Shown here piece by piece: positions 731 through 19,333 of a DNA stretch of 64,000 nucleotides. Under the pieces are notes generated by a model. It was not told the DNA's origin, made no database searches, and saw only the letters and a program-made list of their open reading frames with translations. This stretch comes from Idiomarina tyrosinivorans (GTDB lineage Bacteria; Pseudomonadota; Gammaproteobacteria; Enterobacterales; Alteromonadaceae), in contig NZ_PIQH01000003.1 in assembly GCF_003987475.1 (NCBI RefSeq), positions 62,001 through 126,000 on the forward strand. Reading direction: 5' to 3'. Each line of letters begins with the position of its first letter. Within the stretch, counting starts at the first letter, position 1. The translations under genes and the position numbers were made by a program.

Positions 731-1678
731 TGGCGCAACTTGGTATTGGTTACGGCTAATCGCCAATTTACTGTCTTCGGCAATTTGGCCGGCTGGCATC
801 AGTGCTGGGCCGGCCACTTCGATCAACACATAGGAATAGCCGCTATCATCTAAGGTCTCATCGTCGCTGCGCTGGGTTACGCTAACTGCCACCAGCGCAT
901 GCTTCGGTAGATACACAATAGCAGCGCTAACGTTAGGCATAATCTGCCTCACCAAAGCCAGCATCAATGTTGCTTTGCTGTCGCAATCCCCTTGGTTGTT
1001 GGCAAGCAGTTGTGCTGGCGGCTCATATCCTTGGCCGCGACTTTCGCTGTCGTCGGTCAGTGGGTTATACGGAATGCTCTGCACGAAACTGGCGAGCAAA
1101 TCGAGATAATTACGTTGGGTGTTGTCGCCTAGAATACTATTAAAAGCACGAGCTAATGGAGCAATCTTGGGTGTCACCGCGCGCGCTATGCCTAAATGGT
1201 CGGGAATAATCCCCGGCGCGCTCAATGGCAGATTTAATTGGCGATAATAATTGGCTTCGAGGTAATCTTGCCATTGTTGCTGATAGTAGCTTTGCGCTTG
1301 TTGTAGATGCTCTTTCAGGGTGTCGGTTAAGCGCCCTTGGTATTCAATAGATAACGTCTGTTCGCGTGGTGACAGGGTGGCATAAATGCGGCTCCAACGC
1401 TGTTGCTGAAAATAGCGATTTAACCGATAACGCAATTCCCGGTTAGCGCGCTCGCGCTGGTAACTACGATATTTTTCAAAGGGTTGGAAAAATTCATCAC
1501 GGTCGACAGCAAAACGGATGTCGTAGGACTGCTGGTTGCTGTCACGCCAGCGATAATGAAATTGGTACTGGCCATCATTAAGTTGTTTATCAAAAGCGAG
1601 CTGCTGAGCGCAGACGCTAGGCGCTGCGCTCAGGAGAAGGAGGCACGCCATCCATGTTTGGCGGCGGCATAGCTTCAT
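725..1678 (-). CDS. Secreted transglutaminase-like protein
   Basis: Encodes 317 residues. Residues 1-24 form a signal peptide ending at SVCA-QQ. The C-terminal half has a transglutaminase-like core: Cys232 in GDCDSKA and His260 in PKHALVAV, spaced as in bacterial transglutaminase/cysteine-protease-like domains. The N-terminal 150 residues are rich in Gln, Arg and Tyr and are not recognised. It probably acts in the periplasm, as protease, amidase or structural domain; the substrate is unknown. The start codon overlaps the stop of the upstream 96-residue gene (TAATG), which suggests translational coupling. Confidence 0.7.
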   Translation of the reverse strand: MKLCRRQTWMACLLLLSAAPSVCAQQLAFDKQLNDGQYQFHYRWRDSNQQSYDIRFAVDRDEFFQPFEKYRSYQRERANRELRYRLNRYFQQQRWSRIYATLSPREQTLSIEYQGRLTDTLKEHLQQAQSYYQQQWQDYLEANYYRQLNLPLSAPGIIPDHLGIARAVTPKIAPLARAFNSILGDNTQRNYLDLLASFVQSIPYNPLTDDSESRGQGYEPPAQLLANNQGDCDSKATLMLALVRQIMPNVSAAIVYLPKHALVAVSVTQRSDDETLDDSGYSYVLIEVAGPALMPAGQIAEDSKLAISRNQYQVAPL

Positions 1679-14528: not shown

Positions 14529-14641
14529 TTCTAACGCGCTTAAACGGGCTTTTAACGTAAATTTTTTTTCTAACGTTAGTCGCTTTTGTTATAGTAACGG
14601 CTGAAAACTCAGTCGGTTAGATGTTTAGAAGAGAGGAATCC

Positions 14642-15427
14642 GTGCGATTTAATTGGATTTTAGCAAGCTTGTTGGCAGTCGGTTCGACTACCGTAAATGC
14701 TCAAACCTTTATGTTTGACGATGTGGACGATATGGATACGTCTACCGTTGAAGAGTGGCAGGCAAGTGCGGAACTCGGTGCGTTGTTTACCTCGGGTAAC
14801 ACAGAGACTCAGACCCTTAAAGGAAAATTGAACGTCTCAAAAGATTTCGAGAATTGGCGTCACAAGGGCGTACTCGACTACTACCGCTCAGAGCAAACAG
14901 ACCCAGACACTAATGAAACCACTACAACGGCGGACCGTTTATTCGTTTCTGGGCAAAGCAACTATAAATTCGACCCGAAAAGTAAATCGTCATTGTTCTT
15001 GTTCGGCTCATACGAAGAAGACAAGTTCAGCGGTTATGCCTACCAAAGCACTGTCGCTGTCGGTTATGGTGCTCGCTATCGTTACAACGAGAAAGTCTAT
15101 GCGGACTACGAAATCGGTCCGGGTTATTCGTGGAAGCAAGAAATTGTTGATGACGTCGAACAACCGACAGATACCTCGGCAATCTTACGTTTAGCCGGTA
15201 ACGTTGTTTGGGATATTACCAAGAACTCACGTTTTACCGCATTGCTAGCATCTGAAGTGGGTGAAGAGAACACCAAAACCCGTGGTGAGGTCTCGATCTC
15301 GGCCAACATTAATAGTTCACTGGCGATGAAGTTCTCCATTGGAGCTACGCACAACACCAAGGTGGCTGACGAAACAATAGAAAACTTAGATACCGAAACC
15401 GCCATCACGCTGGTTTACACCTTCTAA
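14642..15427 (+). CDS. DUF481 outer-membrane beta-barrel protein
   Basis: Encodes 261 residues from GTG 14642, chosen because AGAGGAA precedes it and it gives a clean signal peptide (VRFNWILASLLAVGSTTVNAQT); an ATG at 14621 would put charged residues in front. The mature protein has the DUF481/YdiY pattern: GALFTSGNTETQTLKG at the start, then alternating amphipathic strands ending in an aromatic residue (LVYTF). Family members are salt- or acid-induced outer-membrane proteins of unclear role. A strong terminator follows. Confidence 0.85.
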   Translation: MRFNWILASLLAVGSTTVNAQTFMFDDVDDMDTSTVEEWQASAELGALFTSGNTETQTLKGKLNVSKDFENWRHKGVLDYYRSEQTDPDTNETTTTADRLFVSGQSNYKFDPKSKSSLFLFGSYEEDKFSGYAYQSTVAVGYGARYRYNEKVYADYEIGPGYSWKQEIVDDVEQPTDTSAILRLAGNVVWDITKNSRFTALLASEVGEENTKTRGEVSISANINSSLAMKFSIGATHNTKVADETIENLDTETAITLVYTF

Positions 15428-15443: not shown

Positions 15444-15469
15444 AAAAGCCCGCAGCCGCGGGCTTTTTT
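15444..15469 (+). terminator. Rho-independent terminator after the DUF481 gene
   Basis: GCCCGC and GCGGGC pair around the loop AGCC, flanked by AAAA on the left and six Ts on the right, so it could work in both directions. Confidence 0.9.
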
Positions 15470-15476
15470 GTGCCTG

Positions 15477-15530
15477 CCAGTTCTTTACTGCGACTTATGG
15501 CTTGGGCTCGCGGCATCGTCAGGGTTGGGG
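15477..15530 (+). repeat. Left terminal inverted repeat of the 722-bp element
   Basis: 54 bp, complementary to 16145-16198 with three mismatches; begins 8 bp after the DUF481 terminator. Confidence 0.88.
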
Positions 15531-15645
15531 TTGCTTGTTCTCTACCACGGCGATGAGCTTGGGTGGGTCGGCATCGTGAGGGGCTGGAGAGCGCTTGGTG
15601 TGTAGGCGCTTGTTAGAGTCATTGCACGGCACCCCGCCGGTTCAC

Positions 15646-15732
15646 GAAGCTGGGGAAAAAGCCGCTCGAGCTCATCCATGAGGCGCTTAGTCTCCGGCCG
15701 TCCATGGCCGGAGATACTTTTTCCCCAGCTTC
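15646..15732. repeat. Branched hairpin module, left copy
   Basis: A perfect 16-bp outer stem, GAAGCTGGGGAAAAAG with its complement at 15717-15732, encloses an inner hairpin TCTCCGGCC/GGCCGGAGA (15691-15714) and a smaller CTCA/TGAG hairpin. Segments CGCTCGAGC and ATCCATG inside recur in the right copy on the other strand. Confidence 0.8.
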
Positions 15733-16004
15733 GCGCCCCAACGTTGTGCATTAAATGTAGGTGAAGTCGCGCCTACACCCCAAGCTAAGGGCTACGGAGA
15801 AGCGATGCCGAAGCCACACCGAGCGCGCCGTGGCAGAGAACAACCAACCCCAAGCAGACTGTCCGAAACTAACCGATAAAGACTGATGCTTCTTTACTGC
15901 GGCTTTCCGCGATGGAGGACGGCATCGCTTCTCCGCACCTATTTGGCTCGGGGTGTGGGCGCGTTTTCCTCGATATTGATGGGCGTCTCGTTGGGGCGCG
16001 GGGG

Positions 16005-16083
16005 CTCCGGTAAAATGCATCTCTGGCCAGGGAGGGCCAGAGACTGAGCGGCCATGGATCGCTCGAGCGTCTTTTTACCGGAG
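16005..16083. repeat. Branched hairpin module, right copy
   Basis: Outer stem CTCCGGTAAAA (16005-16015) with TTTTACCGGAG (16073-16083); inner hairpins TCTCTGGCC/GGCCAGAGA (16020-16043) and GAGCG/CGCTC (16046-16064). Read on the minus strand it has the same order of parts as the module at 15646-15732, though the outer stem sequence differs while staying paired, a sign that pairing is conserved. Confidence 0.8.
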
Positions 16084-16144
16084 ACACCGTGAACCGGCGG
16101 GACGCTGAGCACCAATCACCCCAGCGCCCAGACCCCGAGCCTTC

Positions 16145-16198
16145 CCCCAACCCTGACGATGCCGCGAGCCCAAGCCATAAGCCGCTGTAAAGAATTGG
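16145..16198 (-). repeat. Right terminal inverted repeat of the 722-bp element
   Basis: 54 bp, the inverted partner of 15477-15530; ends 13 bp from the stop codon of the TerC-family gene. Confidence 0.88.
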
Positions 16199-16211: not shown

Positions 16212-16964
16212 TTATGGTTCGCCTTCGAGTTTCCGGCGTAAGTGTACGGGTTGTTTGGCGCGTTTCTTTCTGACTTTCAGGTTGAGGAGTTCTACGCCTA
16301 ATGAGAAAGCCATGGCGAAGTAGATATAGCCTTTCGGTACATGGAAGTTTAAGCCTTCGCCGACCAAGGCCATGCCTATTAGAATGAGAAAGCTGAGTGC
16401 CAGCATTTTGATGGTTGGATGTTGGTCGACAAATTGGCCGATACTTTTGGCGGCGAATAGCATCACTCCCACGGATAGCACCACGGCAATCACCATTACA
16501 CTTAAGTGCTCGGCCAGACCAACGGCGGTAATAACTGAGTCTAGGGAGAAGACGATGTCTAATATGGCTATTTGGATAATAATTGCCATAAATGATGCAG
16601 CGACTTTGCGGGCAACATGCTCTTCTTCGCCTTCTAACGAGTGGTGAATTTCCAGAGTGCTTTTACCGAGCAGGAATAGGCCACCAAAAAATAGGATAAG
16701 GTCGCGACCAGAAATGGCTTGGTTTAACACGTCAAACAATGGCTCAGTAAGGGTCATTACCCAAGTTATCGAGAACAATAACAGAATCCTAGTACCCATA
16801 GCTAAAAGCAAACCTAAGCGCCGCGCGCTGTCGCGCTGCGCTTCTGGTAACCGCCCAACCAGTATTGAAATGAAGATGATGTTATCAATGCCGAGCACTA
16901 TTTCTAATGCCGTCAAAGTGGCTAGGGCGACCCATGCTTCGGGCATAATGATCCAGTCAAACAT
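16212..16964 (-). CDS. TerC-family integral membrane protein
   Basis: Encodes 250 residues with about seven membrane segments. The TerC signature is clear: LEIVLGIDNIIFISIL near residue 22 and DIVFSLDSVITAVG near residue 135, each with the conserved acidic residues thought to bind metal. Some TerC proteins carry manganese or are tied to tellurite resistance; this one is of the short YgdQ-like type without added CBS domains. A Lys/Arg-rich tail ends the protein. Its 3' end abuts the structured 722-bp element and no separate terminator is seen. Confidence 0.88.
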   Translation of the reverse strand: MFDWIIMPEAWVALATLTALEIVLGIDNIIFISILVGRLPEAQRDSARRLGLLLAMGTRILLLFSITWVMTLTEPLFDVLNQAISGRDLILFFGGLFLLGKSTLEIHHSLEGEEEHVARKVAASFMAIIIQIAILDIVFSLDSVITAVGLAEHLSVMVIAVVLSVGVMLFAAKSIGQFVDQHPTIKMLALSFLILIGMALVGEGLNFHVPKGYIYFAMAFSLGVELLNLKVRKKRAKQPVHLRRKLEGEP

Positions 16965-17924: not shown

Positions 17925-19193
17925 ATGGATATCATTTCTACTTATGGCATGATTCTGATTGCCATGGCGGCCATTTTTGGCTTCTTTATGGCTTGGGGTA
18001 TTGGTGCTAACGACGTTGCAAACGCGATGGGAACCTCCGTCGGCTCAAAGGCGTTGACTATTAAGCAAGCAATTATCATAGCAGCAATTTTCGAGTTCGC
18101 TGGAGCCTATTTGGCGGGCGGTGAAGTCACCGCAACTATCCGTAAAGGCATTATCGATTCGGCGTACTTTATCGATTCTCCAGATTTACTGGTGTTCGGT
18201 ATGATTGCCTCACTGCTAGCGGCGGGCTTTTGGCTGCTAATCGCATCTTATTTAGGCTGGCCGGTTTCAACCACGCACTCCATTGTCGGTGCTATTGTGG
18301 GGTTCGCTGCGGTCGGTGTAAGTGTAGAATCCGTTGCTTGGAGTAAAGTGATTGGTATAGTCGGCAGTTGGATTGTCACCCCGGCGATCTCAGGCTTTTT
18401 TGCCTACCTGATTTTTATGAGCGCGCAAAAGTTGATTTTTGACCAAGCTGACCCGTTGAAAAAGGCCAAGCGTTATGTGCCATTCTATATGGCATTGGCG
18501 GGCTTTGTATTGTCATTGGTTACCATTCAAAAAGGCTTGAAACACGTGGGTTTAAACCTAGCAACCAACGACGGCATTTTGTTGGCTGTTGGCATTGCTA
18601 TAGTGGTGTTCTTTATTGGTAAGTTTGCGATATCTCGTCTCAAATTCAATGAAGAAGCTAACCGCCAGATGCATTACGCCAACGTCGAAAAGGTGTTTGC
18701 GGTACTCATGGTTGTGACGGCTTGCTGTATGGCTTTTGCCCACGGTTCAAACGACGTGGCAAACGCCATTGGTCCGGTAGCCGCGATTGTTAGCGTTGTT
18801 AGCAGCGGTGGTGAGATTGGTAGCAAAGCACAGCTAGCTTGGTGGATATTGCCATTAGGCGGTGTGGGTATTGTTGCGGGCTTAGCGATTTTCGGTAAGC
18901 GTGTAATCGCCACTATCGGTAAAGGTATCACTCACTTAACCCCAAGCCGTGGTTTTGCTGCTGAGCTAGCGGCGGCTGCAACGGTCGTACTAGCCTCTGG
19001 CACAGGTCTGCCAATTTCAACCACGCAAACCCTCGTCGGTGCGGTGTTGGGGGTAGGCATGGCACGTGGTATTGCTGCGTTAAACCTAGGTGTGGTGCGA
19101 AATATCGTTGTTTCATGGGTCGTGACCCTGCCAGCAGGTGCGATCATGTCGATTATTTTCTTCTACATCATCAAAGCAGCCTTCGGCGCCTAA
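17925..19193 (+). CDS. PiT-family low-affinity inorganic phosphate transporter
   Basis: Encodes 422 residues with about ten membrane segments. The duplicated PiT signature is seen twice: AWGIGANDVANAMGTSVGSK near residue 22 and FAHGSNDVANAIGP near residue 270; STTHSIVGAIVG and STTQTLVGAVLG are the matching second motifs of each half. It imports phosphate, probably as a metal-phosphate complex with protons. Expression from the Pho boxes upstream of DUF47 implies induction in phosphate limitation, unlike constitutive PitA of E. coli. Confidence 0.94.
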   Translation: MDIISTYGMILIAMAAIFGFFMAWGIGANDVANAMGTSVGSKALTIKQAIIIAAIFEFAGAYLAGGEVTATIRKGIIDSAYFIDSPDLLVFGMIASLLAAGFWLLIASYLGWPVSTTHSIVGAIVGFAAVGVSVESVAWSKVIGIVGSWIVTPAISGFFAYLIFMSAQKLIFDQADPLKKAKRYVPFYMALAGFVLSLVTIQKGLKHVGLNLATNDGILLAVGIAIVVFFIGKFAISRLKFNEEANRQMHYANVEKVFAVLMVVTACCMAFAHGSNDVANAIGPVAAIVSVVSSGGEIGSKAQLAWWILPLGGVGIVAGLAIFGKRVIATIGKGITHLTPSRGFAAELAAAATVVLASGTGLPISTTQTLVGAVLGVGMARGIAALNLGVVRNIVVSWVVTLPAGAIMSIIFFYIIKAAFGA

Positions 19194-19213: not shown

Positions 19214-19237
19214 GCCCGCTTAACCGCGGGCTTTTTT
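19214..19237 (+). terminator. Rho-independent terminator after the phosphate transporter
   Basis: GCCCGC and GCGGGC pair around the loop TTAACC and are followed by six Ts. The stem sequence is the same as that of the terminator at 15444. Confidence 0.92.
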
Positions 19238-19333
19238 GTGCCTGAACAAAGCCCACCAAAAAAATTTACTTTCTTTCAAACTTTTTTCTGCCCATCATCG
19301 ACTCTGTACACAAATCCATGGAGATGATGACTT

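Follow-up and report, generated by a model that had tools for sequence, protein, structure and literature searches.

The 722-bp non-coding element in the window (the whole 64,000-nucleotide stretch of DNA analyzed here) is best read as a composite double Y, a novel form of YPAL-kind repeat that bears bivalent CsrA-type hairpins. Its building block is very probably a structured, constrained and strand-specific module of the YPAL kind. This module probably works as RNA, and the odds that it binds CsrA, as predicted from its loops, appear about even. The whole explanation, in which a dispersed, outward-facing double Y acts through RNA as a CsrA decoy or as a regulated 3' structure, has in our estimate a probability of roughly 0.55; transcription at the host locus, CsrA binding, the decoy role and the means of spread are what we infer.

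In the proposed scheme, each module would fold on one strand into a long stem leading to a junction and two short hairpins with ANGGA in both loops, and these loops, 24–26 nt apart, would form a bivalent site of the CsrA/RsmA type. Transcripts reading through gene ends would fold into this Y, which might bind a CsrA dimer, either to titrate the protein as a decoy or to provide a regulated structure at the 3' end. In the host species, a pair of modules would have grown into a nested palindrome of 730 bp, which may have spread as a unit or been copied from one site to another; most of these sites are where convergent genes end, and many adjoin a terminator.

Structure of the element and its copies in the host genome

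The features are listed below in window coordinates (R1 is a covariance model of the module, introduced in the next section; its E-values, like those of the second model R2, are rough).

15477–16198, no strand assigned: whole composite element, defined by inverted-repeat analysis and genome nucleotide search
15477–15530, plus strand: left terminal inverted repeat, 54 bp
16145–16198, minus strand: right terminal inverted repeat, 54 bp
15648–15731, minus strand: left Y-module (two-hairpin tip and inner stem), R1 58.6 bits, E 3.9e-11
16003–16084, plus strand: right Y-module, R1 29.8 bits, E 1.5e-4
15700–15705, minus strand: loop of hairpin 1 in the left module, AUGGAC
15674–15679, minus strand: loop of hairpin 2 in the left module, AUGGAU
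16029–16034, plus strand: loop of hairpin 1 in the right module, AGGGAG
16054–16059, plus strand: loop of hairpin 2 in the right module, AUGGAU
15593–15785, no strand assigned: outer stem of the left module, arms 15593–15609 and 15769–15785
15945–16141, no strand assigned: outer stem of the right module, arms 15945–15962 and 16124–16141
15444–15476, plus strand: intrinsic-terminator-like hairpin with a T run and a GTGCCTG tail, abutting the element
14621–15427, plus strand: left flanking gene, DUF481 protein, convergent
16212–16964, minus strand: right flanking gene, TerC family protein, convergent

An earlier sequence-only reading had described the element as two opposed, diverged copies of a structured unit, and this architecture was borne out, as both halves are matched by R1, a model trained without the host genome. 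The 54-bp terminal inverted repeats (15477–15530 and 16145–16198) are 94% complementary, with three mismatches. That reading had also noted inverted blocks common to the two halves; we measured four, of 12–24 nt and 79–100% identity, namely 24 nt at 83% (15623–15646 and 16088–16111), 19 nt at 89% (15653–15671 and 16061–16079), 19 nt at 79% (15692–15710 and 16049–16067) and 12 nt at 100% (15732–15743 and 15989–16000). The inverted ends ascribed to the right half correspond to an 18-nt repeat (15945–15962 and 16124–16141, 94%), and the left half is framed likewise by two repeats absent from that reading, one of 17 nt (15593–15609 and 15769–15785, 94%) and one of 28 nt (15525–15552 and 15826–15853, 93%). 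When each half was folded alone, the result was a long stem ending in two hairpins, in agreement with the claim of one branched hairpin per half. The entire element folded at -439 kcal/mol on the plus strand (z -14.6) and at -420 kcal/mol on the minus strand (z -17.7), and on either strand 0 of 20 shuffles was as low. The non-coding character was also supported: the element contains six ORFs of 53–93 aa, none of which had a Pfam match at E up to 1. Its placement between a terminator and the 3' end of terC was seen as described, with DUF481 (plus) and TerC (minus) convergent and the hairpin adjoining the element.

By eye, the end repeats and the inner stem arms resemble diverged copies of a single unit of ~50 bp. 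Positions 15481–15518 and 15890–15927 are 71% alike over 38 nt, which suggests that the stems may have grown by duplication of this unit. Some copies in the host genome carry extra end-repeat units past the right end. A third R1 match in the window (1600–1638, 12.8 bits, E 1.1) was judged to be noise.

A nucleotide search of the host genome (G000; 2.43 Mb in 21 contigs, an incomplete assembly) showed that the element is multi-copy, with 12 near-full copies, 90–93% identical to the window copy, and five partial copies, all at or near contig ends. Some of the latter could be two halves of one element that the assembly divided. Contigs C2, C16, C18, C20 and C21 end at or near these partial copies, and therefore the element is probably the cause of the assembly breaks. 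Flanking genes are convergent in 9 of the 10 near-full copies having both neighbors resolved; copy L012 lies between co-directional genes, and copies L002 and L006 touch contig ends. In this incomplete assembly, at E<0.2, neither matches to the element ends away from copies nor a full-length IS sharing these ends were seen. The 722-bp element had no match in plasmid and phage collections, an exact 37-nt pattern did not occur in the genome contigs collection and, among the matches listed in a nucleotide search of 147 family genomes (E up to 1e-4), the element was found in its own genome only.

The last 17 nt of the terminator tail occur 14 times in G000 (allowing one mismatch). Twelve of these occurrences lie no more than 52 bp from a copy or fragment, one is alone and one is near a contig end; counted by copies, 9 of the 12 near-full ones have this tail within 52 bp. 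The window itself contains a second terminator-like sequence (19226–19244), located 3' of the gene at 17925–19193, which has the same tail, GCGGGCTTTTTTGTGCCTG, and no adjoining element; it is the only clearly solitary tail among the 14.

A related genome that has no modules (G159) was used for comparison of the locus. Here, genes for DUF481 and TerC proteins are convergent and ~80 bp apart, the element is absent, and a terminator-like hairpin ends in the same TTTTTTGTGCCTG as in the host. Within 280 kb of G159, TTTTTGTGCCTG occurs once, at the DUF481/TerC site. Judged by sequence, this gap is the empty orthologous site. The GTGCCTG tail, at first considered part of the element, is present at the empty site too and might therefore be either a target sequence or flanking DNA that was captured. 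By eye, no clear target-site duplication was evident at the copy ends or between host and G159. The proposal of a non-autonomous mobile repeat family is thus supported by a dispersed family and by an orthologous site that is empty in a relative, while mobility itself is something we infer.

The Y-module beyond the host species

Nucleotide-level matches in 10 of 18 other genus genomes cover only a core of ~40–50 bp. These cores were found to be Y-modules, in which a long stem of variable sequence is capped by two hairpins with GGA motifs 24–25 nt apart (the reported range for modules is 24–26 nt). Alignment A2 and model R1 were made from 26 of the 29 modules found in ten other genus genomes and contain no G000 sequence. 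In A2, stem pairing was 97.9%, the covariation score was 0.673 versus 0.197 when shuffled, and 14/14 stem pairs changed on both sides. R1 matched 24/24 halves of the 12 G000 copies and was positive in 14 of 19 genus genomes (including G000 and the ten training genomes), with 8 to 32 matches each; it had zero matches in the remaining five. Thus, the module covaries and recurs across the genus. Of the two outcomes that the sequence-only reading had named as refuting it, a single-copy unit lacking covariation contrasts with the multi-copy, strongly covarying one observed, and a remnant of a coding gene was not found.

In several genus species, many modules were clustered within tens of kb, in one region per genome (loci L107–L126, on G147:C6, G151:C17, G150:C1, G132:C1, G104:C21, G153:C8, G152:C1, G158:C1 and G154:C3).

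In wider scans, R1 matched, among the matches listed, 47 of 147 sampled family genomes and 64 of 369 sampled class genomes, and copy numbers from these scans are to be read as "at least". Alignment A4, with 54 matches from 44 of 54 family and class loci, was used to build model R2. Its covariation score was 0.930 (0.217 when shuffled), and two extra covarying pairs lengthen hairpin 1 across a U.Y mismatch. R2 matched 13 of 22 chosen genomes, with 142 matches in G424, 78 in G448, 54 in G249 and 29 in G000; no match came from G201, G262, G321, G333 or any of the five module-less genus genomes. In G243, equal-scoring matches were spread over many contigs.

A strand that folds as RNA tolerates G.U pairs but not A.C mismatches. 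We oriented modules by their asymmetric tip and tallied distinct isolated stem mismatches. On the ANGGA strand, G.U:A.C was 183:46 in other genus species, 19:1 in the G000 copies and 217:70 in 210 class modules, whereas composition predicts a G.U share of ~0.5; these events were separated by sequence context alone, and some shared ancestry remains among them. Outside the modelled positions, the corresponding ratios were 148:45, 19:0 and 147:54, and one class subset (17:9, p 0.12) was not significant. On the strength of this excess, the ANGGA strand appears to be one that folds as RNA or single-stranded DNA, and G.T pairing in single-stranded DNA could be its source instead of RNA. Replication-strand mutation bias was considered as an origin of the excess and is disfavored because paired modules are oppositely oriented at the same place. 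The suggestion of a large structured RNA or cruciform can therefore be retained in part: the single-strand structure covaries, whereas a symmetric cruciform is disfavored by the strand-specific G.U excess.

Among the 12 G000 copies, modules vary at 5 of 166 columns and the rest of the element at 105 of 520 (Fisher 4.7e-9). Because the aligned ranges of four copies begin in or near the left end repeat, this repeat (18 of 67 columns) was excluded from the test. ANGGA motifs are intact in 48/48 loops of these copies; the opposite strand of the tips has no such motif. In the class set (A4), GGA is kept in 53–54 of 54 rows and the linker (RAGC) and tail (UUYACRGCGU) are likewise conserved, with the reservation that copies were selected by the model, which inflates conserved positions. 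ANGGA is all that CsrA requires; conservation of the linker and tail therefore leaves room for a ligand other than CsrA or for a role at the DNA level.

Relation to known repeats and RNA families

Among the closest known relatives is YPAL/RU-2, the Yersinia palindromic sequence: by eye, the RU-2 sequence given in PMC2759123 contains the same Y-module. Four Yersinia loci (Y. similis and Y. pekkanenii), which were found using a module-derived pattern, were all matched by R2, at 60.2–66.5 bits. YPAL is described as intergenic, multi-copy and MITE-like, with targets at or beside dyad symmetry and target duplications of 3–26 bp (PMC2229807). A comparable placement beside terminator-like sequence is seen here in the nine near-full copies close to a terminator tail, and the empty site has the same tail. 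However, YPAL/RU-2 is 168 bp long and has one module, whereas the host element is 722 bp long, with two opposed modules, a nested palindrome and 54-bp ends. That the sequence-only reading could match the element to no named class is borne out for its 722-bp composite form, which is new, but not for the repeat unit, which belongs to the YPAL/RU-2 kind and has a relative in TwoAYGGAY.

TwoAYGGAY (RF01731), a predicted CsrA binder (PMC4333381), resembles the host module in having a stem that closes two hairpins with AYGGAY loops and in being dispersed and multi-copy. It was detected in 12 of 185 class genomes (10 above cut-off, with at least 14 matches in the top genome) and in 0 of 14 control genomes. 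The window copy scored 29.2 bits, below the gathering cut-off of 43 bits, and hairpin 2 is longer in TwoAYGGAY than in the host module. Both loops of the left tip are of the AYGGAY type (AUGGAC, AUGGAU), but only one of the two in the right tip (AGGGAG, AUGGAU). Matches to R2 and RF01731 coincide at 2 of 10 RF01731 loci fetched, L206 in G249 and L210 in G228, and each of these genomes has modules matching R1/R2 and RF01731. On the other hand, G201, G262, G321 and G333 are rich in RF01731, yet had zero R2 matches; given these genomes and the sub-threshold window score, TwoAYGGAY and the host module may be distinct families. Locus L182 scored 45.2 bits with RF01731 in one scan and was unreported when a 211-base stretch was rescanned at the gathering threshold.

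Ysr224 (RF02770) matches the opposite strand of the module at 9 of 16 loci in the genus and 3 of 20 in the class, with scores of 23.5–31.8 bits against a cut-off of 70, and an Rfam scan of the window gave no RF02770 match. Ysr224 thus reads as the module in reverse. It is among the 20 most prevalent sRNA annotations according to PMC9029176, and several copies are transcribed in Y. ruckeri with differing profiles, the strand being left unstated (PMC12112432). Matches to Rfam microRNA families (mir-3926 and others) were below cut-off and were judged to reflect chance similarity of stems.

CsrB/RsmY-type decoy RNAs are sRNA genes with their own promoters. The host modules, unlike these, are dispersed repeats, although both carry series of GGA-bearing hairpins (PMC7652899). 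The same source gives ANGGAN as the loop pattern of CsrA/RsmE and RUACARGGAUGU as the SELEX consensus, a pattern that the module loops fit. A csrA gene was present in 21/21 genomes searched, G000 among these.

REP/BIME and CGTC/GTAG repeats (PMC3733652) are also dispersed intergenic palindromes, often in inverted pairs and mostly outside divergent gaps, as here. They differ in having units of 20–40 bp and, for GTAG, a tie to RAYT genes, whereas the host element has no RAYT link. CGTC-tagged REPs were considered in view of the CGUC tail and rejected, as size and layout differ.

We tentatively suggest, with somewhat less than even confidence, that YPAL, Ysr224, TwoAYGGAY and the host modules form a mobile-like repeat superfamily which has spread bivalent CsrA hairpins in gammaproteobacteria, with up to ~140 modules per chromosome, such that repeats would partly set the CsrA load; the host double Y would then have been copied between conserved convergent junctions. 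Through this module YPAL, a MITE-like repeat, is connected with the sRNA family Ysr224 and, at certain loci, also with TwoAYGGAY, an orphan motif in Rfam. Should CsrA indeed bind the loops, the titration of a global regulator would depend on repeats whose numbers rise and fall from one species to another. A whole-word literature search, which covered few subscription papers, found no paper joining YPAL with TwoAYGGAY, Ysr224 or CsrA; it did find TwoAYGGAY and CsrA, and Ysr224 and CsrA, named together.

Gene junctions and competing explanations

Gene context was derived from simple ORF-based gene calls. In the genus, 0 of 87 resolved units (own copies included) are located between divergent genes, versus 74 of 253 background gaps. 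Outside the genus, 10 of 68 units in one set and 10 of 56 in another are in divergent gaps, with backgrounds of 27/101 and 64/215, respectively. Module pairs face outward in 12/12 G000 copies and in 31/31 cases in other genus species, many at orthologous places. Among two-module units outside the genus, 7 of 10 in the first set are outward (one inward, two tandem) and 4 of 5 in the second (one tandem). A rule that single modules in co-directional gaps lie antisense to the genes was tried and dropped: antisense to sense was 14:7 in the genus and then 24:12 and 12:14, for a total of 50:33 (p 0.08). As there is no sense-strand bias in these counts, plain 3'UTR transcription fails to explain the single modules.

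Five copy junctions were testable, and at four of these the relative has a module of its own, a rate that is biased upward by the choice of relative stretches for having modules, although the coincidence of junctions is not. The junctions of L003, L004 and L012 carry modules in G028 (for L012, with one flanking gene only), the L011 junction has own modules in nine species, and the L004 junction is empty in G159. The simplest reading is that old modules occupied fixed junctions and were overwritten or joined by the composite as it spread in the host species.

This coincidence bears on the view that the element is a purely selfish miniature transposable element without a host role, whose fold is a signal for a transposase acting on a single DNA strand and which accumulates at gene ends merely because insertions are tolerated there. 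We consider this unlikely, although it would account for the multiple copies with terminal inverted repeats, the terminator tail near most of them, the empty site in a relative, the equal-scoring matches across many G243 contigs and the tandem module arrays in G122, and it agrees with the MITE-like nature and target duplications of YPAL. It fits less well with modules of different species at the same gene junctions, with tips that stayed conserved while the rest of the copies diverged and with the transcription of Ysr224 copies in Y. ruckeri, and an autonomous partner was not found when the ends were searched in G000 (E<0.2). The absence of genus units from divergent gaps would also be expected of a bidirectional 3'-end device, in which stems stop or stabilize transcripts at convergent ends and the ANGGA loops are incidental, and YPAL might affect the stability of the upstream transcript (PMC2229807). 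Such a device seems improbable: the gene on the left is already followed by a terminator-like hairpin, visual inspection of the window showed no module with a long U run after it, the ANGGA and GGA motifs are kept almost without exception in the G000 copies and class rows, and divergent gaps are used outside the genus.

Two further explanations have still lower probability. The first, a DNA cruciform whose palindrome is maintained by template switching and which has no role as a single strand, would explain the long near-perfect palindromes, and correction between arms could, by our reasoning, mimic covariation; it is very unlikely given that the G.U excess is strand-specific in the genus, own-genome and class sets and that the conserved tip is asymmetric. 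Mobilization of a REP/BIME-type repeat by a RAYT (Y1) transposase we regard as scarcely credible. The dispersed inverted pairs do resemble REP dimers (PMC3733652), and G000 has one Y1 gene, but no module lies in the 3.5-kb stretch around this gene (L235), and a Y1 match is absent in 8 of 19 genus genomes, seven of them module-bearing. That is, Y1 is lacking in 7 of 14 module-bearing genus genomes and found in 4 of 5 module-less ones. In addition, unit size and layout are unlike the GTAG and CGTC families as described.

With regard to module arrangement, locus L150 (G122:C1) was observed to contain, at 1154–2103, six modules in direct tandem, ~174 bp apart. A transcript of this locus would bear a dozen ANGGA hairpins consecutively.
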